The notes under the pieces are model-generated. The model had not been told where the DNA came from, did not search any database, and was given only the letters and a program-made list of their open reading frames with translations. A program made the translations under genes and the position numbers. A stretch of DNA of 42,569 nt, from positions 65,637 through 108,205 of the forward strand of contig JAAYJK010000026.1 in NCBI GenBank assembly GCA_012522955.1, read 5' to 3'. Shown here piece by piece: positions 18,972-37,004 of the stretch (its first letter is position 1; every line of letters begins with the position of its first letter). The DNA is from Syntrophomonadaceae bacterium. Lineage in GTDB: Bacteria; Bacillota; Syntrophomonadia; Syntrophomonadales; Syntrophomonadaceae.

Positions 18972-19892
18972 CTAACGCAGAAAACCATCAATAATTATGT
19001 CAACTGCTTCCTGCTCCATTAATCCCAGCGACATCAGTTTGATCAGTTGTTCACCAGCAATTTTACCGATGGCCGCCTCATGGGTTAATACCGCCTCAGA
19101 GTCCTCTGCCACTAACTCGGGAATAGAACTAATCCGGGCTTTATCCATAATAATGGAATCACATTCCACATGACCGTTACATTCTACCTGGCCTAATAGG
19201 GAAGCCCTGAACACTTGGACTGATGTATCCCGGGCTACTGAGCGGGATATAATTTGCCCACTTCCGCCCTTTCCCACTATATTTAACTTAACATCTGATT
19301 CCGCAACCTGATCACCCTCGGTCATAAGCCTTTCTACTATTTTCAGTGTGGCCTTGTCCTCAATATAAGCTATGGTTGATCGGTGGGTATCATCTACCCC
19401 TTTGATCTGGGTCATCTCCAATTCAGCTGAAGCTCCACTGTGTAAGGTTATTCTGGTAGTGGGGTTCATTATTCTTTTTCCCTGACCCGAGCCTTGGCCC
19501 ATATGCTTCTCAACATATCTTAAACGAGCACCTGTACCTACAACAAACTCATGAACCCCATCGTGCTTGGAATCACTGTGGCTGGGATTATGAATCCCGC
19601 AACCAGCGATGATTGTAATATCGGAATTCTCTCCGATATTAAAAGTGTTGTAGACAGTTTCTTGAATACCTGCTTGGGTGATTAGCACCGGAACATGAAT
19701 GGTTTCCTGGGTTCCTGGTTTCACTACCAGGGAAAATCCTCGTCCATCTTCCCGGGAAGTTATAGTCACCTGGGCCGAGGAATTGCGCACTATCGATTCT
19801 CCATCTACTCGTATATTAACTGCCCCATCCGGTATTTGGGTCAAATCAGTAATAGTATTTAACAGCTCCATGCTCAAATTATCAAATTTCAT
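18972..19892 (-). CDS. SufB/SufD-type Fe-S cluster scaffold (minimal Sms/Suf system)
   Basis: A 306-aa SufBD-core protein, shorter than standard SufB (about 470 aa) because it lacks the long N-terminal region. Typical features are the beta-helix core and the C-terminal block RISSIPELVAEDSEAVLTHEAAIGKI, with Glu and His near the SufC interface. With SufC next to it and no SufD, SufS or SufU visible here, this fits the minimal two-gene SmsCB arrangement of anaerobes and archaea. It overlaps sufC by 11 bp. Confidence 0.9.
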   Translation of the reverse strand: MKFDNLSMELLNTITDLTQIPDGAVNIRVDGESIVRNSSAQVTITSREDGRGFSLVVKPGTQETIHVPVLITQAGIQETVYNTFNIGENSDITIIAGCGIHNPSHSDSKHDGVHEFVVGTGARLRYVEKHMGQGSGQGKRIMNPTTRITLHSGASAELEMTQIKGVDDTHRSTIAYIEDKATLKIVERLMTEGDQVAESDVKLNIVGKGGSGQIISRSVARDTSVQVFRASLLGQVECNGHVECDSIIMDKARISSIPELVAEDSEAVLTHEAAIGKIAGEQLIKLMSLGLMEQEAVDIIIDGFLR

Positions 19893-20628
19893 AAGTCAAC
19901 AACTCTCCACACTGTTCTTTCATCTTGCATTCAACATCATCCTTGATCAAAGGCCATACTTCTTCCCGGGTACCCTGGGCCTGTACCATACCATTACCAA
20001 CCACAATTATTTCATCACATATGCCCAAGATATTTTCGTTGTGAGTAATAATAATTGTTATGGCATTCGGGTTGTTTTTAAACTTGCTATACAGAATTCC
20101 AATAAGCTTCTGTATGGTCCATAAATCAACTCCGGCTTCGGGCTCATCAAAGATAGAAACTTCTGCCTCTCGGGCTAAAACTTGGGCTATTTCTACTCTT
20201 TTCACTTCTCCGCCACTTAATCCCGGTCCCACATCCCGGAATAGGTAGTCTTCCGGGCACAGGCCTACATCCCGCATAGTACCTCTTAATGCTAGCTGAT
20301 CAATACCGGGCCGGGCAATTTTGATTAAATCTTCGATAGTTAGTCCTTTAAATCGCGGAGGTTGCTGAAAAGCATAGCTTATGCCTCGATGGGCGCGTTC
20401 ACTAATATTGAGTTGGGTTATTTCCTCCCCGTTCAGGTATATTTCTCCGCTGGTGGGGCTAAATATGCCCATCACCAATTTGGCAATAGATGTTTTTCCT
20501 CCTCCGTTGGGGCCAGTTATAGCATAAACCTTACCCTTTTCAAATACCAGGTTAATGCCGCGAATAATTTCTTTAGCTGGTCCATTTTCGTCATATACAG
20601 TCATATACAAGTTTTTGAGTTCTAACAT
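19882..20628 (-). CDS. sufC: SufC-type Fe-S assembly ATPase
   Basis: A 248-aa ABC-type ATPase that powers the Suf scaffold and is soluble. Walker A is GPNGGGKTS, the signature LSGGEVKRVEIAQVLA and Walker B VSIFDEPEAGVDLWT, the last being SufC-specific. The frame opens at a GTG at 20643, but the ATG at 20628 is 8 nt after GGAGG and gives MLELKNLY, the usual start. It lies downstream of feoA with a 118-bp gap. Confidence 0.95.
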   Translation of the reverse strand: MLELKNLYMTVYDENGPAKEIIRGINLVFEKGKVYAITGPNGGGKTSIAKLVMGIFSPTSGEIYLNGEEITQLNISERAHRGISYAFQQPPRFKGLTIEDLIKIARPGIDQLALRGTMRDVGLCPEDYLFRDVGPGLSGGEVKRVEIAQVLAREAEVSIFDEPEAGVDLWTIQKLIGILYSKFKNNPNAITIIITHNENILGICDEIIVVGNGMVQAQGTREEVWPLIKDDVECKMKEQCGELLTYEI

Positions 20629-20760
20629 AATTGAGTCCTCCACTGCAAACAGATTATCGAATATATTTTATCATAACTGTAGATTATACGTCTAATAATT
20701 CGGTTACTGCAGCTGGCTTTGTTCATAAAGCTGAATTATTCCTTAATTAATGACAGTTGG

Positions 20761-21001: not shown

Positions 21002-22768
21002 CTACCCCGGTAAGATTAAATTCAATGTTGCACCAACCACAAAGGAAGTAATAAATCCCAAGGCCAGTATTTTCACTAAGCCTTTAGCTCCTATCTCCCT
21101 GACTGTCATTACCATGACCGGTAAACATGGCAGGGAAAGGGATATCATGGAGATGGCTATGGTAGCTTCTCTGGGCGTTAAACTGGCATTTAAAAGAACC
21201 AGAGGGGCCAAGTAGCGCTGAAACATAGTTACCAATACTGCTACAAAAGCATCAGATGGTATACCAAAAATCGATCGGGTAAATCCTTCCATAGTATAAA
21301 ACAGCTCAAAAAATCCCGATTCCATTAAGCCCCGGATAATTATATTCATTACCAGCAATAAGGGCAATACTTCGCTAAAGAACCCGGCAAATCTCATCCG
21401 CACCTTCTTCCATACGTTGCCCCAATCGGGAATCCGTAGAGGGGGAAGTTCATATACAAACACCTCTTCCCGGGGCATAGACCTGCTGAGTAAAAATCCT
21501 AGAATAACCAGTACTGCCAGCATAGTAGTCAACAAGACCAGCAATGAAGCATCAAAGGCTGTAATAACAGCTGCCATAACGCCTATGGTAGCAGCACAAG
21601 GAATAACAATACTAAGAATGGTAATCACTATGAATCGCTCGGCCATAGTCGGCATTAAACGAGTAGCCAATATGGCTGGAGTACGGCAGCCGAAGCCCAA
21701 AGAAAGAGGTATTACTGCCTGCCCCGAAACACCAAACAGTCTGCCCACTCTTTCCAATGCTACTGAATAGCGGGGCAGAATGCCAGTGTCCTCCAGCACC
21801 GACATTAAAAAACTAACCATTAACATAGCTGGCATAATAATGGTAAAAGGTATAATAAGTCCTTCTGGAATAGCTTTGGATAAAATATTATTGATCATAC
21901 CATCGGGCAATAAACTGGCTAAGAAATTTTCGATAAAAATGTTCACAGGATTAAGGATAGCACTTATCGGGCCTTCGCTTAATTCGATAAATTTCAATAG
22001 CAGAAAAAAGCTTAAGAATACAAAAATCAACAGTATAATGGTACCCAATATCGGCTGATCTAAGACCTTTTCCGCTTTATCAATCCAATAGCGTTGAACC
22101 TTACTCTGCCGGTGAAGTACTAGTTGGGCGGTATAGCGAGCAATTTCAGCCCTTCTGAAATCATCCGAGCCCAGACAACTTTCGGATCCAATAGAGCAGC
22201 CTGTACAGCCAGTGCATTGTAAAGAACATTCCTGGCAATTTTCATATTCCAAATAGGGCTCTATGCTGCTGGGACGGTTTAATTGCAGGCTATCCAGCTG
22301 AAGCATCTGCATTAATTCCATTAAACCTTCGCCGGCAACCGCGGAAAAGAATAGTACCGGGGCTCCCAGAATTTTCTCCAGCCGCTCGCGCTGGATTTCC
22401 AATCCTATTCTTCTAGCCCGATCGATTTGATTGAGCAGCACTATCATAGGAATTCCCAGCTGTTTGAGCTCAAAACTCAACATCAGGTTGCGCTCAAGAT
22501 TGCTAGCATCCAAAACATTTAAAATCAGCTCAGGTTTTTCCTGTTCCAGGATATCCTTTATTATTTGTTGATCCTGGCCTATAGAAAATATGGAATATAT
22601 ACCAGGAGTATCAATGATTCTTATTTTTCGGTTGGGAAGATTAATGGTGGCTTCACTGACTTCCAGAGAAGTGCCGGCATAATTGGATACGATGAAGTTG
22701 CTGCCGGTAAGGCGGTTCAAAACCAGGCTCTTGCCCACATTGGGATTTCCTATCATCACTACTGTCAT
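21002..22768 (-). CDS. feoB: ferrous iron transporter FeoB with a cysteine-rich linker
   Basis: A 588-aa Fe(II) transporter: N-terminal G-domain with G1 GNPNVGKS (7-14), G3 DTPG (53-56) and G4 NQID (113-116), then a linker and about eight membrane helices with the gate motif region FGCRTPAI. Shorter than the ~770-aa enteric form. Between the G-domain and the membrane part six cysteines are packed at 178, 181, 185, 188, 191 and 198, suggesting a metal or Fe-S site. AGGAGG precedes the ATG. It lies between fur and feoA in one operon. Confidence 0.96.
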   Translation of the reverse strand: MTVVMIGNPNVGKSLVLNRLTGSNFIVSNYAGTSLEVSEATINLPNRKIRIIDTPGIYSIFSIGQDQQIIKDILEQEKPELILNVLDASNLERNLMLSFELKQLGIPMIVLLNQIDRARRIGLEIQRERLEKILGAPVLFFSAVAGEGLMELMQMLQLDSLQLNRPSSIEPYLEYENCQECSLQCTGCTGCSIGSESCLGSDDFRRAEIARYTAQLVLHRQSKVQRYWIDKAEKVLDQPILGTIILLIFVFLSFFLLLKFIELSEGPISAILNPVNIFIENFLASLLPDGMINNILSKAIPEGLIIPFTIIMPAMLMVSFLMSVLEDTGILPRYSVALERVGRLFGVSGQAVIPLSLGFGCRTPAILATRLMPTMAERFIVITILSIVIPCAATIGVMAAVITAFDASLLVLLTTMLAVLVILGFLLSRSMPREEVFVYELPPLRIPDWGNVWKKVRMRFAGFFSEVLPLLLVMNIIIRGLMESGFFELFYTMEGFTRSIFGIPSDAFVAVLVTMFQRYLAPLVLLNASLTPREATIAISMISLSLPCLPVMVMTVREIGAKGLVKILALGFITSFVVGATLNLILPG

Positions 22769-28056: not shown

Positions 28057-28830
28057 TTAAAGCAGGAGCGGGAGCATTACCCGCTTTCCCCTGTTCAATG
28101 AAGCTATCTCCCGATAACCCGCAGCCCAGGCTGCCTGAGCTGCTTCCCTCACTCCCTCTCCCACCTCAGACGGATGATGAGCATCCGAAGCAAGGGTTAC
28201 CGGAATCTTCATTGAGGCCATCAGTTTTAATATTTCCTGTCCGGGGTACAGCTCTCCCACCGGTTTCCTCAACCCGGCACTGTTAATCTCCACACACATA
28301 TCCGATTTTTTAATTTTATTCAATACTTCATGACAGTAGTAGTTTAGACTATGGCCAACCGGTCTATGACCCCATTTTTTTATAAGGTCAAAATGAGCAA
28401 CAACCGTAAAAAGACCAGAATCAACCATTTGGCTCAACACTTGGAAATAGCGCTGACAAACCTGGTCAATATCCAAATGATCAAAACCATCCCGGTGATC
28501 GGGGTGGTCAAAGGCCCATCCATCCAAATAATGGATGGAGCCGATAATATAATCATAGGGATACCCGGCCACCAGCTGCCGGATTTGGTTTTCCCGTTCT
28601 TCCCAATAATCAACTTCCAAGCCGATCTTGATCTTAATATCATCATATTCCCGGCGAAGGTTTTCCAGCAACCGATAATCGATCTCAGCTATATATTCGT
28701 CATGTTCAGTAAAACCTATCTCCCTCAGCTTGTGGCTACGGGCAGTTTCTATAAATTGCCTGATCCATTCACGGGAATACTGGTATTCCCCGTGGGCGAT
28801 GGCATGAACATGGTAATCCAGCAGCATCAT
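28057..28830 (-). CDS. PHP-domain phosphoesterase (histidinol-phosphatase-like)
   Basis: A 257-aa metal-dependent phosphoesterase. Motifs in order: DYHVHA (5-10), FTEHDE near 40, IGSIHYLDGWAFDHPDH, VAHFDLIKKWG and LASDAHHPSEVG, which supply the metal-binding His/Asp/Glu. It resembles HisK histidinol-phosphatases, but no other his genes are present, so the substrate is open. GGGAG precedes the ATG. Last of a five-gene cluster, 19 bp after the SDR gene. Confidence 0.85.
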   Translation of the reverse strand: MMLLDYHVHAIAHGEYQYSREWIRQFIETARSHKLREIGFTEHDEYIAEIDYRLLENLRREYDDIKIKIGLEVDYWEERENQIRQLVAGYPYDYIIGSIHYLDGWAFDHPDHRDGFDHLDIDQVCQRYFQVLSQMVDSGLFTVVAHFDLIKKWGHRPVGHSLNYYCHEVLNKIKKSDMCVEINSAGLRKPVGELYPGQEILKLMASMKIPVTLASDAHHPSEVGEGVREAAQAAWAAGYREIASLNRGKRVMLPLLL

Positions 28831-28849: not shown

Positions 28850-29608
28850 TTAAATGTAACATGACAATCCACCGTCAACCATAAAGATGTTCCCGGTCAG
28901 CCAGGCCGAATCCTCACCTGCAAAAAAGAGCATAATGCCTTTCATGTCCTGAGGATAGGCAACTCTTTTCATAGGGAAGCGCCGCGTTAACTGATCCATT
29001 TTGCCTGCTTTCTCCAGCCTCTCTATTTCTAACTCCATCATATCAGTTACTATATGGGAGGGACACAGACAGTTAACCCTGATATCCGGGCCTAATTCAG
29101 CTGCCAGAGCCTTGGTAAGCATCACCACTCCACCCTTCATGGCACAATAGGCACTTACTTTCTTGCCTCCCAGCACTCCCAGTATGGAGGAAATGTTAAT
29201 TATACTGCCTCCTCCATTTTCTTTCATTAACGGAACCATATACTGAGAAACCAGGTATACACTGCGAAGATCCACCTGGTATAGCCGGTCCAGGTCTTCT
29301 ACGCTGGTATCCAGAAAAGATTTGAACAGAGAAGATCCCGCATTATTAACTAATATATCCAGTCTCCCATATTTCTCCTGTACAAAGTCTTTTAATCTCT
29401 GTATATCTTCCACTTTGCTTACATCGGCGGAACAGGCGGCGGCTTTTCCGCCGGCCTGGATAATTTCAGCTACGGTTTCTTCCAGGGGTGGCAACCGTCT
29501 CCCGGCCACTATACTAATTCCGCCTTCTTCTGCGATGATCTGGGCGGCGGCTTTTCCGATTCCAGTTCCTCCCCCGGTTATTAAAGCTACTTTACCTTCA
29601 AATTTCAT
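28850..29608 (-). CDS. short-chain dehydrogenase/reductase
   Basis: A 252-aa NAD(P)-dependent oxidoreductase. The Rossmann motif TGGGTGIG is near the N-terminus, NNAG follows, and the catalytic Ser and YCAMK (YxxxK) are intact. It ends with the usual DGGLS. A FabG-like 3-oxoacyl or hydroxyacyl role is possible given the adjacent enoyl-CoA hydratase, but the substrate is unknown. The ATG at 29608 is 6 nt after GGGAG; a TTG two codons earlier is less likely. Confidence 0.92.
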   Translation of the reverse strand: MKFEGKVALITGGGTGIGKAAAQIIAEEGGISIVAGRRLPPLEETVAEIIQAGGKAAACSADVSKVEDIQRLKDFVQEKYGRLDILVNNAGSSLFKSFLDTSVEDLDRLYQVDLRSVYLVSQYMVPLMKENGGGSIINISSILGVLGGKKVSAYCAMKGGVVMLTKALAAELGPDIRVNCLCPSHIVTDMMELEIERLEKAGKMDQLTRRFPMKRVAYPQDMKGIMLFFAGEDSAWLTGNIFMVDGGLSCYI

Positions 29609-29648
29609 GCGCAACTCCCACTTTCTATATTTTTTTCCATTAACAGTC

Positions 29649-30398
29649 CTATTTCTTGCTGTGTAAAAATTCTGACATCCTGCTGATCATATCCTCACTG
29701 CCCACGAAGTTTCTAAAACCCCATACTTGAGTCCGTATGGCAGCTTCAGTATCCATTCCCGGTATCCGGTTGGTTTGATCTTTGTTGGCTTTAAGAGCCT
29801 GGCGATCAAATGCCGCGATCTTGCGAGCTAGAGTTTTAGCTTCATTCAGATAGCTCTCTACAGGATAAACATAATTTGCCAGTCCCATTTCACGAGCTTC
29901 TTCCGCACCATAAAGCCTGCCAGTCATGGTCAGCTCTTTAGCTCGACCCAGCCCTACTATTTTCCACAGAGGGTCATTCAAGGGAGTTAAAGCCCAGCGT
30001 ATCTCAGCCTGGCCAACTTTAGCGGTCTGGGAGAAAATCCTGATATCTGCCATTACCATGAGATCGAATCCAGCTGCAATGGCCGGCCCGCTAACCGCAG
30101 CTATTACAGGCATGGGAAACCTTAAAACACTGAGGAAGGCCTTTTCAATCAGGTCTACCTTATTCATTTTATCCTGCCCCAGGTTCATTACCGTATTCAT
30201 ATCAAAACCGGCACAAAAAACCTCATCACATCCGGTCAGGACCACGGCATTAACTTCAGTATCCTGCTTTAGATCAGTAAATGCTTGGCTTATAGACTCC
30301 AATAAATCAAGATTCAAAGCATTCTTAAGTTCCGGCCGGTCGATAATCACCACGGCAATATTACCATCTTTTTCCACCTTTAGATTGTCGTATACCAT
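29649..30398 (-). CDS. enoyl-CoA hydratase/isomerase family protein
   Basis: A 249-aa crotonase-fold protein. The oxyanion-hole regions (KNALNLDLL, SGPAIAAGFDLMVMADIRI) are present, and both catalytic glutamates of true hydratases appear to be kept: Glu in KVGQAEIRW and Glu in GRAKELTMTG. It should hydrate or isomerise an enoyl-CoA. The frame opens at 30497, but AAGGAGG 6 nt before the ATG at 30398 decides the start. It lies 67 bp after the RACo-like gene and 40 bp before the SDR gene. Confidence 0.92.
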   Translation of the reverse strand: MVYDNLKVEKDGNIAVVIIDRPELKNALNLDLLESISQAFTDLKQDTEVNAVVLTGCDEVFCAGFDMNTVMNLGQDKMNKVDLIEKAFLSVLRFPMPVIAAVSGPAIAAGFDLMVMADIRIFSQTAKVGQAEIRWALTPLNDPLWKIVGLGRAKELTMTGRLYGAEEAREMGLANYVYPVESYLNEAKTLARKIAAFDRQALKANKDQTNRIPGMDTEAAIRTQVWGFRNFVGSEDMISRMSEFLHSKK

Positions 30399-30465
30399 TA
30401 AGTTACCTCCTTGGTTTGCGTCTTCTATAGTACTAAAAATAACTTTTCGCAGGGGAAGCAGGGAA

Positions 30466-32307
30466 TCAGATAAGTTCCTCATTCCCTGGAAAGTCAATCT
30501 GACTCAAAAACAATTCTTGAAATCCATCTCCTTTGGCAATCTCTATATGGCGGATTTTTTCGGACATTAGTCCGGCTCTTTCCCAGAGTGAAGAAGACAA
30601 TAATACCTGCATCGCTCCCAGTCCAGCCGCATTGCCAATGCTTTTTATGGCTGATACTGGTACCTGCGGCAATAACCCTATTCTCAAGGCACTGACCGGG
30701 TTGATATAATTGCCAAAAGATCCTGCCAGATATATGCAATCGATCTGTCCGTAGCCTACCCCGGCCTCATTTAAAAGACTATCAATGGCAGAACGAATAG
30801 CCGCCTTGGCCAGCTGTATCTGCCTGATATCTTCCTGGTTGATAGTAATTTTCAAGCCGTGGGCAGTTTGTTCCTCTCCCAACAATACTATCTGGTCCCC
30901 GTTCTGAGTACTATCTATGGGCAATGAGCCTGATTCCTGACCACTAATTATTCCATGCTTATTAATTAAACCTGTTTCCAGGAAATAGGCTAGCAAATCT
31001 ATAACTGCGGAACCGCATAAGCCCCTGGGTAAATCATTTCCCAGCACGTTAAATTCCAGCCCACTGCCTTGACCCGGGAATACTCGGTCTATGGCACCTT
31101 CACCAGCCCTCATGCCGCAAGTGATACCCCCACCTTCAAAAGCAGGACCAGCGGCGGCAGAAGCAGCCCACATTTGTTCTTGGTGTTTTAATACTATCTC
31201 TCCATTAGTACCAATATCAACCAGCAGATAAGTATGATCCTGATCCATGGGAATGCTTAATAAAGCAGCCACCGTGTCCGCTCCCACAAACCCACCTATT
31301 TGGGGTAATATATAGCATTCCGCCTCCTGGGCTGCATGAAGACCCACGGTCCTGGCCGAACATGTAAGCTGGTCGCTGAACAAGCCTAGATAAGGAGCAG
31401 CAGCAAAACCAGCCGGATTTAAGCCTAAGAAGAAGTGCAGCATTACTGGATTACCCACAACACTAAAGGCATAAATATCCTCAAATCCAATCCCCACCTC
31501 CAAGGTCATTTCTTCCAAACACCCATTGATGCTGTTGATCAAAACTCGCCGCAGGGTTTGCAGGCCATCAGGATTATCCAGGGCATAGCTCAATCGAGCC
31601 ACTATATCAGCTCCAAAGGTCTTTTGCAGGTTACTGCGGCTTATTACCGCTACTGTTTGCTTTTTCTGCAAGTCCAGCAAAGCTGCAAAAATAGTGGTTG
31701 TCCCAATATCCAGAGCGATTCCAAATGCCTGGCATGATTTGGAGCCAATATATTGCACCCTATTACCTGGATGTACCAATGCTCTTAGCTCCAAGGAAGG
31801 CCTGCCACTCCTATCCAACCTGGACAAAAAAGCCAGGTTATCCATATTCAAATCCAAATCATACGAGGGAAGAGCCATCCTCAAACGGCGATGCAGCGAA
31901 ACCGGTTCTTCATTATCCATCCCCGGGATAAAAAACTGCTTTACCTGTATTAAGGCCGGCCCTTGGTCTGAGGAAGGTAAAGGTATGGTACTGCTAGCCG
32001 CATGTTCCTGCCCGGAATAATCAAGATACACCTTTAATGGAGCATGGACATTACAGTAACAAGCCAGGCGAAAACCCTGTTTTATTTCTTCTGGCAATAA
32101 GTATTCCCTCTCCTTATCAGAGATGGGATTAGTATCGCCTTCAACTCTTAGCTTGCATTTACCGCATAAACCATTGCCGCCACAGCTACCATCTATATCC
32201 ATACCCGAATCGGCCAAGCTGTCCCATAATCTTTTCCCATCCAGCGTCCAGAACTCATGTTCAGTTCCATCTGCCTTAAGCAGCTTTATCTTCACCTGTT
32301 CATTCAT
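30466..32307 (-). CDS. RACo-like protein: 2Fe-2S ferredoxin domain plus ASKHA ATPase domain (DUF4445)
   Basis: A 613-aa protein. The N-terminal ferredoxin domain has the Cx5Cx2C motif SCGGNGLCGKC and a later Cys in LACYCN. The rest is an ASKHA-type fold with GIALDIGTTTIFAALLDL, LLVDIGTNGEIVL and YLAGSFGNYI. Relatives reduce or activate corrinoid proteins of methyltransferase systems using ATP. No corrinoid protein or methyltransferase is in this window. The start at 32307 has AGGTG 8 nt upstream and lies 7 bp after the fdhD-like stop; a start nine codons earlier is possible. Confidence 0.88.
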   Translation of the reverse strand: MNEQVKIKLLKADGTEHEFWTLDGKRLWDSLADSGMDIDGSCGGNGLCGKCKLRVEGDTNPISDKEREYLLPEEIKQGFRLACYCNVHAPLKVYLDYSGQEHAASSTIPLPSSDQGPALIQVKQFFIPGMDNEEPVSLHRRLRMALPSYDLDLNMDNLAFLSRLDRSGRPSLELRALVHPGNRVQYIGSKSCQAFGIALDIGTTTIFAALLDLQKKQTVAVISRSNLQKTFGADIVARLSYALDNPDGLQTLRRVLINSINGCLEEMTLEVGIGFEDIYAFSVVGNPVMLHFFLGLNPAGFAAAPYLGLFSDQLTCSARTVGLHAAQEAECYILPQIGGFVGADTVAALLSIPMDQDHTYLLVDIGTNGEIVLKHQEQMWAASAAAGPAFEGGGITCGMRAGEGAIDRVFPGQGSGLEFNVLGNDLPRGLCGSAVIDLLAYFLETGLINKHGIISGQESGSLPIDSTQNGDQIVLLGEEQTAHGLKITINQEDIRQIQLAKAAIRSAIDSLLNEAGVGYGQIDCIYLAGSFGNYINPVSALRIGLLPQVPVSAIKSIGNAAGLGAMQVLLSSSLWERAGLMSEKIRHIEIAKGDGFQELFLSQIDFPGNEELI

Positions 32308-32314
32308 GCCTTTA

Positions 32315-33037
32315 TCACCTGCAGTTACCTGCAATTATACCTTCCGGATGGGAATAAATATTGAACCGCTCTCCCCGAGCAAAACCAATTAAGGTTATAC
32401 CAGCCTGTACGGCCTTGCTTTGGGCTAGATTAGTTACCGTAGCTCTGGATACTACTAATTTAATCCCCATATAAATAATCTTTTCTATTATCTCACTGCT
32501 AATCCTACCACTGCTAAGAAATATCATGGAGCTGCAATCCAGCCGGTTTTTTAAACAATAACCATATAACTTGTCTACTGCATTATGTCGGCCCACATCC
32601 TCTCGACTAACCAGCAGTTTCTCGCCCTGGCTCAGGCTCATGATGTGAACCCCACCTGTCTGCTTGTGAATATCTGATGCATCCAGGTGTAACTTCATGA
32701 GTCTGGTGATGTCTTGAGCATCAACCTTGATACCTACCTCCCGTTCATGACCCTTCCGGGCTCCGGATTCCTGCCCTCTTATTAGGCTAACATATACTCG
32801 GTGGGCTTCCATATTAAAGCTCTTAATGTCCTCAATGGAATTAATTATACTATCAAAAGCCAGGGATCCAATTACCAACTCATCAACAGCAATGGGTGAA
32901 CAGTAGATCTTTCTATATGGCTCCCCGTTAAGCCATATCTCTATGCCCTGTTCTACTACCATTAGATCCTTTAGTTCAACTATTCCCAGTTCAGATGAGT
33001 AGCGTTTTATTAAAGCATAGCTTACTGCCTTATCCAC
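32315..33037 (-). CDS. FdhD-like protein lacking the sulfurtransferase cysteines
   Basis: A 240-aa FdhD-family protein by its C-terminal half: TGGVHIMSLSQG, SREDVGRHNAVDKLYG, FLSSGRISSEIIEK and SRATVTNLAQ. FdhD passes sulfur from a cysteine desulfurase to the molybdenum or tungsten cofactor of formate dehydrogenase, using a CxxC loop. Here the segment that should hold it (SLIRGQESGARKGHEREVG, then IKVDAQDI) contains no Cys. It is either a diverged FdhD or a molybdopterin-binding protein with another role. GTG start with AGGAGG upstream. First gene of the cluster with the RACo-like protein. Confidence 0.82.
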   Translation of the reverse strand: MDKAVSYALIKRYSSELGIVELKDLMVVEQGIEIWLNGEPYRKIYCSPIAVDELVIGSLAFDSIINSIEDIKSFNMEAHRVYVSLIRGQESGARKGHEREVGIKVDAQDITRLMKLHLDASDIHKQTGGVHIMSLSQGEKLLVSREDVGRHNAVDKLYGYCLKNRLDCSSMIFLSSGRISSEIIEKIIYMGIKLVVSRATVTNLAQSKAVQAGITLIGFARGERFNIYSHPEGIIAGNCR

Positions 33038-33139: not shown

Positions 33140-33463
33140 CTATTTAGTCTCTGCCATCAGGGCAAATGCAAAAACAAAAGCCCAGACAAGTGCTGCTAGC
33201 AGAGCTATGGTGGCAGTACCCCAACCATTTCCGGCCTGTATAGCAGCATTCCCCATGCTATACAGAACATTAAACCCGATCAAACCTATGGCTGTCAGGA
33301 TAAATATAATCTTCTTAAAACCGCCCGAAAGCTCAAACTTTTTGGCCCAACCACAGAATTTCCAAAAAATAATAATCGATAATAAAACCCCCAGAAATAA
33401 GATTAACGGGTTGGTAAATATACCTCCATCACTGGCCGCAGCTGCTGATCCAAATGCTAACAT
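33140..33463 (-). CDS. small membrane protein, three predicted helices
   Basis: Not recognised. A 107-aa protein (from ATG 33463) with hydrophobic segments NPLILFLGVLLSIIIFW, IIFILTAIGLIGFNVLY and TATIALLAALVWAFVFAFAL, and an Ala/Gly-rich start. The frame opens earlier at 33532, but GAGGGGG before the 33463 ATG decides the start. It stands alone with its own terminator between the fdhD-like gene and rnpB. Confidence 0.7.
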   Translation of the reverse strand: MLAFGSAAAASDGGIFTNPLILFLGVLLSIIIFWKFCGWAKKFELSGGFKKIIFILTAIGLIGFNVLYSMGNAAIQAGNGWGTATIALLAALVWAFVFAFALMAETK

Positions 33464-33666
33464 CTTTTCACCCCCTCTTCCATAATTGCCTTGTTCATTA
33501 TTATAAAACTCTTTCGAAAGCAAGAAATCCAAGTTCTATAAAAACATAAAAAAATAGAAACCATCTTTCCTGCTTTCAACTCTCTTTTTGTAAAATATTC
33601 TCTAATAATTTCTTTTTTCCTGCTGCTTTATTAATTATTTTTGAAAAACCCTTAAGCCGGGGCAAC

Positions 33667-34124: not shown

Positions 34125-34155
34125 AGGCCTTGCAATATTGCAAGGCCTTCTGTTT
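34125..34155 (+). terminator. terminator of rnpB
   Basis: The palindrome AGGCCTTGCAAT/ATTGCAAGGCCT (12 bp each arm) is followed by TCTGTTT. Its centre contains GCAATATTGC, the same core that recurs at 34209 and 34230. Confidence 0.75.
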
Positions 34156-34203: not shown

Positions 34204-34247
34204 ATCGTGCAATATTGCATTAATATCGTGCAATATTGCACGATATT
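34204..34247. promoter_or_regulatory. twin palindromic sites, possible operator for the beta-oxidation genes
   Basis: ATCGTGCAATATTGCA occurs at 34204-34219 and again at 34225-34240, exactly 21 bp (two helix turns) apart. The second copy is the core of a perfect 26-bp palindrome at 34222-34247 with half-site AATATCGTGCAAT. Position, about 365-400 bp ahead of the thiolase gene and with helical spacing, suggests a dimeric regulator; the regulator is unknown. Confidence 0.5.
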
Positions 34248-34611: not shown

Positions 34612-35811
34612 GTGAAGGATATAGTACTGGTAAGCGCATGCCGGACTGCCATAGCACGTTTTATGGGCAGTCTAAAAGACATTCAGGCCAATGACCTGGC
34701 CATCACCGCTGGTAAGGCCGCTATCGAAAGAGCAGGGATTGATCCGGCTATAATTGATGAATTAACTCTAGGCCAGGTATTTCCTCATGGACAGGGTTCC
34801 CTGCCCTCCAGGCAAGTAGCTATGGCTTGTGGATTAAGGTTCGATAGCACAGCTTGTAATGTAAACCAGAACTGTGCTTCTGGGATGAGGGCGTTAGAGA
34901 TTGCGGCCCGGAATATACAAATGGGTAATAATGATGTTGCTCTAGTAGTTGGAGTGGAAAGTATGACCAATGCCCCCTATTTGGCTCTGAAAGCCAGAAT
35001 GGGATATCGCATGAATGCTGGCAAATTGGAAGATGCCATGATTTATGATGGCCTCTTTGATGGACTGGTACCCGGTCATATGGGTCTTACCGCTGAAAAC
35101 GTAGCAGAAAAATACGGTATTACCCGGGAAGAGTGTGATGAACTGGCCCTGATGAGCCATCAGCGGGCAACCAGAGCAGTTAAGGAAGGCACCTTTAAGC
35201 GGGAAGTGATCCCCTATGAGATCAAGAGCAAAAAGGGAAGCAAATTCTATGAAAACGACGAACACATGATTCCGGATGCCAATCTGGAAGCCATGGCCAA
35301 ATTGCCATCCGCTTTCAAGAAAGGCGGAGTTGTGACCGCTGCTAATGCCTCCGGTATCAATGACGCGGCTGCTGCAGCGGTAATAATGTCCAAAGAGAAA
35401 GCTGACGAACTGGGAGTTAAACCTTTGATGAAGCTCATCAATATCACCCATGGCGGAGTTGACCCTAAACTCATGGGTCTGGGACCGGCCCTGGCTATTC
35501 CCAAGTCTTTAAAGAACGCCGGATTAAAATTCGAAGATATTGAGTATTGGGAAATCAATGAGGCTTTTGCCGCTCAATTCCTGGGTGTAGGCAGAATGCT
35601 AAAAGAAGAATATGGTATAGAGTTGGATATGAACAAGTGTAATCTCAATGGCTCCGGAATCGCTCTGGGCCACCCGGTAGGATGTACCGCACTGCGTATC
35701 ATAGTGTCCTTGTATTATGAACTGGAAAGACAGGGCAAGACTGTGGGAGGCGCATCTCTGTGCGTAGGCGGCGGCTCGGGTATGTGTTCATTATGGACCC
35801 GGGATATATAG
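34612..35811 (+). CDS. acetyl-CoA C-acetyltransferase (thiolase)
   Basis: A 399-aa biosynthetic/degradative-type thiolase that splits acetoacetyl-CoA into two acetyl-CoA in butyrate oxidation, or the reverse. The active-site Cys is C88 in NQNCASGMRA; the C-terminal pieces NEAFAAQFLG, GHPVGCTALRI and CVGGGSGM are intact. The GTG start has AAGGAG 10 nt upstream. It is 50 bp before the acyl-CoA dehydrogenase, so the two are one operon. Confidence 0.95.
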   Translation: MKDIVLVSACRTAIARFMGSLKDIQANDLAITAGKAAIERAGIDPAIIDELTLGQVFPHGQGSLPSRQVAMACGLRFDSTACNVNQNCASGMRALEIAARNIQMGNNDVALVVGVESMTNAPYLALKARMGYRMNAGKLEDAMIYDGLFDGLVPGHMGLTAENVAEKYGITREECDELALMSHQRATRAVKEGTFKREVIPYEIKSKKGSKFYENDEHMIPDANLEAMAKLPSAFKKGGVVTAANASGINDAAAAAVIMSKEKADELGVKPLMKLINITHGGVDPKLMGLGPALAIPKSLKNAGLKFEDIEYWEINEAFAAQFLGVGRMLKEEYGIELDMNKCNLNGSGIALGHPVGCTALRIIVSLYYELERQGKTVGGASLCVGGGSGMCSLWTRDI

Positions 35812-35861
35812 ATTGCTCAAAAGAATAACCAATAGCAGATGAAAAAGAGGGGGTAAAATTA

Positions 35862-37004
35862 ATGGATTTTCGTTTATCCGATGAACAAGAAATGATGAAG
35901 AAAATGGCTCATGATTTTTCCGTTAACGAAATAGCTCCATTTGCTGGAGAATGGGACAACACCCACTATTATCCAGAAGAAGTTATCAAAAAAATGCAGG
36001 AATTGGGATTTATGACCCTGGCCTGTCCGGAAGAATACGGCGGAGTTGGCCTGGACCATGTGGCACAGAATATTGTGGCCGAGGAAATCTGCTGGGGTGA
36101 TGCAGGTATTGGTACTACTATGGTGGCTAGTGCCTTGTTGTCCACTGACCCTATTCTGGTGGCAGCCAATGATGAACAGAAGAAATGGTGGTTTGGTCGG
36201 CAGAACGAAGGGGTTCTGGGGGCTTTCTGTCTGACTGAACCCAGCGCTGGTTCCGATGCCGGGGCTTTGGCTACCCGGTGCCAAAAGGTAGGCGACGAGT
36301 ATATTATCAACGGGGTCAAACAGTTTATTACCAATGGCGGCATCTGTGGACAGTATTCCCTACTGGCCACCCTGGATAAGAGCATGGGTTACAAGGGTAT
36401 GTGTGCCTTTATGATTGACCGGGATACACCCGGCATCAGCGTAGGTAAAGTTGAGGATAAACTGGGTATCCGCACTTCAAATACCACCGAAGTTATTTTT
36501 GAAGATGTGCGGGTTCCCGCCAAGAACCTTCTCGGCACTGAAGGCCAGGGATGGTACATAATCATGAAAACCCTGGACCTGTCGAGAGCCAGTATCGCCG
36601 CTATGGCTACTGGAGTGGCTCAAAGAGCAATGGATGAATCCCTTGAATACTCCAAGCTCAGGACTCAGTTTGGCAAGCCAATTTCCAGCTTCCAGGCCAT
36701 TCAGTTCAAACTGGCTGACATGGCCATGCATATAGAAGCCTCACGCTTGCTTTATTTGGAAGCTTCTTCCCTGCAGGATATGGGAGTACCACGTTTCAGC
36801 AAAGCAGCCTCTCTAGCTAAAGCCTATGCCGGGGATACCGCTATGATGTGTGCCATCGAAGCAGTACAAGTATTCGGCGGATATGGATTTACCAAAGAAT
36901 ATCCGGTGGAAAAATTGATGAGAGACGCTAAGATATTCCAGATTTATGAAGGTACTGGTGAAGTACAGCGTATGGTTATCGCCGGAGACTTGCTTAGGGG
37001 TTAA
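35862..37004 (+). CDS. acyl-CoA dehydrogenase (short-chain/butyryl-CoA type)
   Basis: A 380-aa FAD enzyme that oxidises acyl-CoA to enoyl-CoA. Typical blocks are FCLTEPSAGSDAGAL, FITNGG, KLGIRTSNTTEV and the C-terminal RDAKIFQIYEGTGEVQRMVI, in which Glu363 of YEGT is the expected catalytic base. With the thiolase it gives two steps of beta-oxidation. Electron transfer flavoprotein genes are not in this window. AGAGGGGG precedes the ATG. Butyryl-CoA as substrate is inferred from the inferred lifestyle. Confidence 0.95.
   Translation: MDFRLSDEQEMMKKMAHDFSVNEIAPFAGEWDNTHYYPEEVIKKMQELGFMTLACPEEYGGVGLDHVAQNIVAEEICWGDAGIGTTMVASALLSTDPILVAANDEQKKWWFGRQNEGVLGAFCLTEPSAGSDAGALATRCQKVGDEYIINGVKQFITNGGICGQYSLLATLDKSMGYKGMCAFMIDRDTPGISVGKVEDKLGIRTSNTTEVIFEDVRVPAKNLLGTEGQGWYIIMKTLDLSRASIAAMATGVAQRAMDESLEYSKLRTQFGKPISSFQAIQFKLADMAMHIEASRLLYLEASSLQDMGVPRFSKAASLAKAYAGDTAMMCAIEAVQVFGGYGFTKEYPVEKLMRDAKIFQIYEGTGEVQRMVIAGDLLRG

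Follow-up and report, generated by a model that had tools for sequence, protein, structure and literature searches.

An FdhD-family protein with a deleted cysteine loop in a Syntrophomonadaceae bacterium, a probable cofactor chaperone for formate dehydrogenases

Gene content of the fdhD locus

The window, meaning here the whole stretch of DNA that was analysed, comprises 42,569 nucleotides from a Syntrophomonadaceae bacterium (assembly GCA_012522955.1, contig JAAYJK010000026.1, positions 65,637 to 108,205 of the forward strand). It carries an fdhD-like gene, the product of which is termed FdhD1, within a cluster whose order is conserved among relatives as small protein, fdhD, (mobB), RACo-like activase and PHP-domain protein; enoyl-CoA hydratase and short-chain dehydrogenase genes have been added to the cluster in some genera (Table 1). 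On the same strand, the RACo-like gene probably starts 7 bases past the fdhD stop, so that the two genes are probably carried on one transcript, and they are adjacent in most genomes that have a cluster fdhD. The mobB gene (PF03205) belongs to the pathway of the bis-molybdopterin guanine dinucleotide (bis-MGD) cofactor. It follows fdhD in five related genomes (G027, G030, G031, G032, and G033), which indicates an original association of the cluster fdhD with a cofactor gene; in the window's genome (G000) mobB is located elsewhere, outside the fdhD cluster.

Table 1. Coordinates of the fdhD cluster and of other features in the window.
Feature	Position	Strand	Remarks
SmsB-like gene (SUFBD_core)	18972-19892	(-)	Fe-S assembly, outside the fdhD cluster
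SmsC-like ABC ATPase gene	19882-20643	(-)	with the SmsB-like gene, a minimal Fe-S assembly pair
feoB gene	21002-22768		next to the SmsB/SmsC-like pair (18972-20643)
PHP-domain protein gene	28057..28830	(-)	closes the conserved cluster
Short-chain dehydrogenase-like gene	28850..29614	(-)	judged from sequence; in the cluster in some genera
Enoyl-CoA hydratase-like gene	29649..30497	(-)	judged from sequence; cluster member in the genus and also in G009
RACo-like ASKHA activase gene	30466..32307	(-)	Fer2 + Raco_middle + RACo_C_ter; probable ATG at 32307
fdhD-like gene (FdhD1)	32315..33037	(-)	240 aa, GTG start, complete open reading frame, loop-deleted
Family core SGR...K	32480..32512	(-)	residues 176-186, kept in FdhD1
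Family core TGGVH...REDVGRHNAVDKLYG	32561..32659	(-)	residues 127-159, kept in FdhD1
Loop remnant	32726..32782	(-)	residues 86-104, cysteine-free, modelled with low confidence, differs among relatives
Terminator-like hairpin	33122-33103		between the small protein gene and fdhD, separating them
Small conserved protein gene	33140..33532	(-)	no Pfam match; upstream of fdhD, cluster head in nearly all relatives
Palindrome TGCAATATTGCA, three exact copies	34131-34142, 34208-34219, 34229-34240		upstream of thiolase/acyl-CoA dehydrogenase genes
Thiolase/acyl-CoA dehydrogenase genes	34612-37004	(+)

Beyond the head of the cluster, the three copies of the palindrome TGCAATATTGCA are probably the operator of a regulator. 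A count of three was reached in 1 of 100 shuffles, and a single copy is found upstream of the thiolase gene in G004, G003, and G002 (loci L047, L048, and L054).

An FdhD family member without its cysteine loop

FdhD1 scores 190.3 bits against the Pfam profile PF02634 (FdhD-NarQ; cut-off 27.2) and 164.8 bits against TIGR00129 (cut-off 140.9), and it remains below the cut-off of NF001943 (PRK00724; 157.7 versus 269). Two FdhD structures, 2PW9 and 4PDE, were matched by phmmer, and the same two are the top PDB matches of an AlphaFold2 model built from a 55-sequence alignment (mean pLDDT 94.4), with TM-scores of 0.80-0.85 for 2PW9 and 0.80 for 4PDE, the E. coli FdhD with GDP; the model has no other strong matches in the PDB. 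All 15 positions that are invariant across 55 diverse FdhDs are present in FdhD1, the core invariants T127, H131, D147, G149, R150, H151, D155, G159, R178, and K186 among them, which bears out an earlier note on this DNA in which the C-terminal FdhD signatures were described as intact. By profile, fold and invariant residues FdhD1 is a true member of the FdhD/NarQ family, sharing all three with the E. coli protein. A plasmid scan returned only FdhDs of less than 60% identity, and a viral_contigs scan returned no relatives of FdhD1.

The cysteine loop of FdhD is, in the textbook view, the arm that hands over sulfur. In E. coli FdhD it aligns as RTGCGVCG, with cysteines C121 and C124, and stimulates IscS via C121, whereas in FdhD1 it has been deleted: an alignment with E. 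coli FdhD and 45 relatives leaves zero residues of the loop, about 25 having been removed. The remnant occupies the site of C121/C124, and around it (approximately residues 86-104) the structural model shows its sole clear dip in confidence, where the loop would sit. The absence of cysteine from this segment, as first noticed, is therefore confirmed and extended, the whole loop being absent and not just mutated. A CxxC in another register is ruled out, because no residues are left in which it could hide and 11 orthologs, that of the window included, lack the segment. A sequencing error or frameshift is likewise ruled out by the occurrence of the deletion in the closest ortholog, that of G004 with 83% identity, and in nine more (G003, G001, G022, G023, G010, G019, G016, G032, and G030), and by a dN/dS of 0.17 for fdhD between the window and G004. 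In the same comparison dN/dS is 0.26 for a second FdhD encoded by this genome (FdhD2, below), 0.15 for the RACo-like gene, 0.12 for the PHP gene, and 0.06 for the short-chain dehydrogenase gene; FdhD1 is maintained under purifying selection.

Other relatives in the order have loops of the form TGCGK, SCCGK or TCxGK/R, with one or two cysteines. Judged from these sequences, a single or double cysteine is already the norm among relatives, and it is the deletion, rather than a missing CxxC, that appears to set the FdhD1 clade apart. When an FdhD tree was built without the loop columns, the 11 loop-deleted sequences formed one clade (support 97/89), the sister of which (96/95) consists of FdhDs from the same gene cluster in a sister family (G027a, G031a, and G033); these lie in the same order with respect to the RACo-like and PHP genes and, unlike FdhD1, keep both TGCGK and an adjacent mobB. 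Across the tree the loop-cysteine label switches about eight times, at least five of them on well-supported branches. These changes include one outside the order, in Selenomonas, the FdhDs of which (L078 and L081) have independently lost the loop cysteine motif.

The cysteines left in FdhD1 are C46, C161, C168, and C239, and sulfur might still be transferred through one of them, for example C46 (in a CSP/CTP motif) or C161. Both are invariant within the loop-deleted clade, and C46 is kept in 17 of the 20 loop-cysteine-free FdhDs of the set; however, it is equally common where a loop cysteine is present (25/26), both E. coli FdhD and FdhD2 have alanine at position 46, and C161 is missing from the other loop-cysteine-free lineages. 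A relay of this kind is considered unlikely. With the loop and both of its cysteines deleted, FdhD1 is not classed as an IscS-dependent sulfurtransferase of the E. coli type.

FdhD copies, formate dehydrogenases and the RACo-like neighbour

The window's genome is 99.85% complete and encodes two FdhDs, neither of which has a loop cysteine. The search for a normal FdhD elsewhere in the genome, proposed in the earlier note as a check, thus yielded only FdhD2, and no loop-cysteine FdhD was found in this genome or its genus; the FdhD2 orthologs of G002, G003, and G004 also lack cysteines at the motif position. FdhD2 adjoins a formate dehydrogenase (FDH) gene with an in-frame TGA and a moeA-like gene, and FdhD1 adjoins no FDH. 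Three FDHs with in-frame TGA are present in the same genome, as expected for an FDH maturation factor, and when each is read with TGA as selenocysteine (U) they score 839 and 868 bits against TIGR01591 and 1211 bits against TIGR01553.

Among the relatives, most of whose genomes are drafts, 15 genomes from 11 genera encode no FdhDs other than loop-cysteine-free ones; 14 of these 15 exceed the cut-off of TIGR01591 (FDH alpha subunit), and the other, G017, has a partial match at a contig end. The FdhD1 ortholog is the sole FdhD in seven genomes (G010, G016, G019, G022, G023, G030, and G032), all of which have FDHs. Since several FDHs are retained with only loop-less FdhDs, the loop is not always needed, as has already been hinted at in the literature. 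One genome rated 100% complete (G025, L165) has an FDH above the cut-off, a cluster with the RACo-like gene and mobB, and no FdhD, in line with the report that some FDH-bearing organisms lack fdhD (PMC10609526).

These distributions bear on whether FdhD1 might be a decaying paralog, or have been reassigned from FDH to another Mo/W enzyme. The loss of mobB from the cluster and the position of FdhD2, not FdhD1, beside an FDH would suit such a fate, as would the broken ortholog of G002, in which FdhD1 is interrupted by a frame change and a stop (an assembly error is possible) and FdhD2 is intact. Against it stand the dN/dS of fdhD and the seven FDH-bearing genomes in which FdhD1 is the only copy, to which G001 can be added, where FdhD1 is intact and FdhD2 has been reduced to a C-terminal fragment. 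Decay or a change of enzyme is accordingly regarded as quite unlikely, and the retention of one intact copy each in G001 and G002 suggests that FdhD1 and FdhD2 do the same job and are interchangeable.

The neighbouring RACo-like protein shares the Fer2, Raco_middle and RACo_C_ter domains with RACo/RamA-like (DUF4445) corrinoid activases; it differs from them in falling below the AcsV and Rama_corrin_act cut-offs. Nearly every genome of the order encodes it. The gene is kept in nine genomes whose cluster has no fdhD (G005, G006, G007, G009, G013, G020, G025, G026, and G029), where it holds its place beside the small protein or PHP gene, and also in genomes without any FdhD (G021, G025, and G029). 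An obligate pairing of FdhD1 with the RACo-like gene was rejected on these grounds, and the earlier suggestion of another pathway shared by the two proteins is not supported. A candidate corrinoid partner is available in the same genome: the sole protein with a B12-binding cap found in G000 is a MetH of 858 aa that lacks the reactivation domain (PF02965), and for MetHs of this kind in Phaeobacter and Desulfovibrio, DUF4445/RamA-like proteins have been inferred as the reactivators (PMC5764234). Together with its retention in the absence of fdhD, this makes it more likely that the RACo-like protein acts as an activase of MetH, separately from FdhD, and shares the fdhD transcript by history. That FdhD1 and the RACo-like ATPase would form a reductive activation pair, with the latter supplying electrons for reductive sulfuration, is very improbable given this MetH and the persistence of the gene without cluster fdhD or any FdhD, even though the two genes are closely linked and chemical sulfuration of FDH requires a strong reductant besides sulfide (PMC12140954).

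Cofactor delivery and the source of sulfur

We favour, at a probability of roughly 0.65, a function of FdhD1 as a bis-MGD-binding chaperone that supplies selenocysteine FDHs without a persulfide relay on loop cysteines. FdhD1 would bind the Mo/W bis-MGD cofactor and hand it to the organism's selenocysteine-containing FDHs. The disordered loop, which in E. coli FdhD works with IscS and takes sulfur from it, has been lost permanently, and the sulfido ligand would therefore have to arrive at the metal by a route that bypasses a loop-cysteine persulfide, from a desulfurase straight onto the bound cofactor or as free sulfide under reducing, anoxic conditions. Cofactor binding without sulfur transfer by these cysteines, one of the options raised in the earlier note, is in this respect the best-supported reading, the fold and invariant residues being kept and three FDHs present, although the binding itself, as well as delivery to these FDHs and the route of sulfur, is what we infer.

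The premise from which that note started, a requirement for the cysteines in E. coli FdhD, is contested, as FDH activity was still obtained with a C121A/C124A double variant (PMC6239281). Since 2018, when the cysteines were found to be dispensable in some assays, it has been a matter of dispute whether FdhD acts as a sulfurtransferase or as a cofactor chaperone. FdhD variants without both cysteines still yield active FDH, bis-MGD binding by FdhD is independent of the CXXC motif, and group III FdhDs, among them those of Clostridia and cysteine-free sequences, do not conserve this motif (PMC6239281). FdsC of Rhodobacter capsulatus, a chaperone of the FdhD family, binds sulfurated bis-MGD and does not need its CXXC cysteines (PMC6239281); unlike FdhD1, it still carries them (C104/C107). 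The cysteine-free members of group III, such as the FdhD of Methanococcus maripaludis, resemble FdhD1, when compared by description, in having no loop cysteine (PMC6239281, PMC10609526). Cysteine-free FdhDs and the dispensability of CXXC are thus already published (2018, 2023), and FdhD1 adds a well-resolved example to a known phenomenon. The order, with its repeated loss of loop cysteines and several genera that combine only loop-cysteine-free FdhDs with intact FDHs, provides a natural experiment, and loop-free FdhDs bear on the role of the loop in the family as well as on the origin of the sulfido ligand's sulfur.

With regard to that origin, IscU/NifU_N is absent in all five genomes of the genus, in which no close full-length IscS/NifS was found either, the best full-length matches being about 34% identical. 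The best desulfurase match in the window's genome is of the TIGR01977 type and adjoins the selenium gene yedF, and no IscS-type partner, as an E. coli-type sulfurtransferase would have, was found there. The archaeal counterpart of the SmsB/SmsC-like pair (Table 1) uses sulfide (PMC12192291), FDH can be chemically sulfurated by sulfide and a strong reductant (PMC12140954), and cysteine-free FdhDs have been suggested to accompany another sulfuration route (PMC10609526). The lack of IscU and of a close IscS, the presence of SmsCB, and this chemical precedent make free sulfide a plausible sulfur source for FdhD in the genus. The stricter proposal, previously speculated on for methanogens, that inorganic sulfide directly sulfurates the Mo/W cofactor on FdhD in this genus, with neither an IscS-type desulfurase nor a persulfide relay, is put forward tentatively, as possible rather than probable; if it holds, the IscS-docking loop would have been free to go from both FdhD copies.

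A general rule by which cysteine loss follows the loss of IscS/IscU was rejected and stays only a lead for this genus. With counts entered by hand per genus, the possession of only loop-cysteine-free FdhDs was associated with IscU absence (Fisher p 0.006, and 0.011 when only genomes of at least 90% completeness are counted), and a test of loop cysteine against IscU on independent tree pairs had four pairs and no power. The absence of IscS does not track loop-cysteine loss: Selenomonas (L078 and L081) and L075 have IscS-like genes and no loop cysteine, and in Syntrophomonas palmitatica a loop cysteine occurs without a close IscS. In G013 and G028, which have loop-cysteine FdhDs, fdhD adjoins nadA, a gene for an Rrf2-type regulator, iscS, and iscU. 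The loss of IscS in the order looks recent and repeated, and truncated iscS genes have a nadA-like gene and a gene for an Rrf2-type regulator as neighbours in G004 (L181, 1551-2487) and in G026 (L182, 2834-3580).
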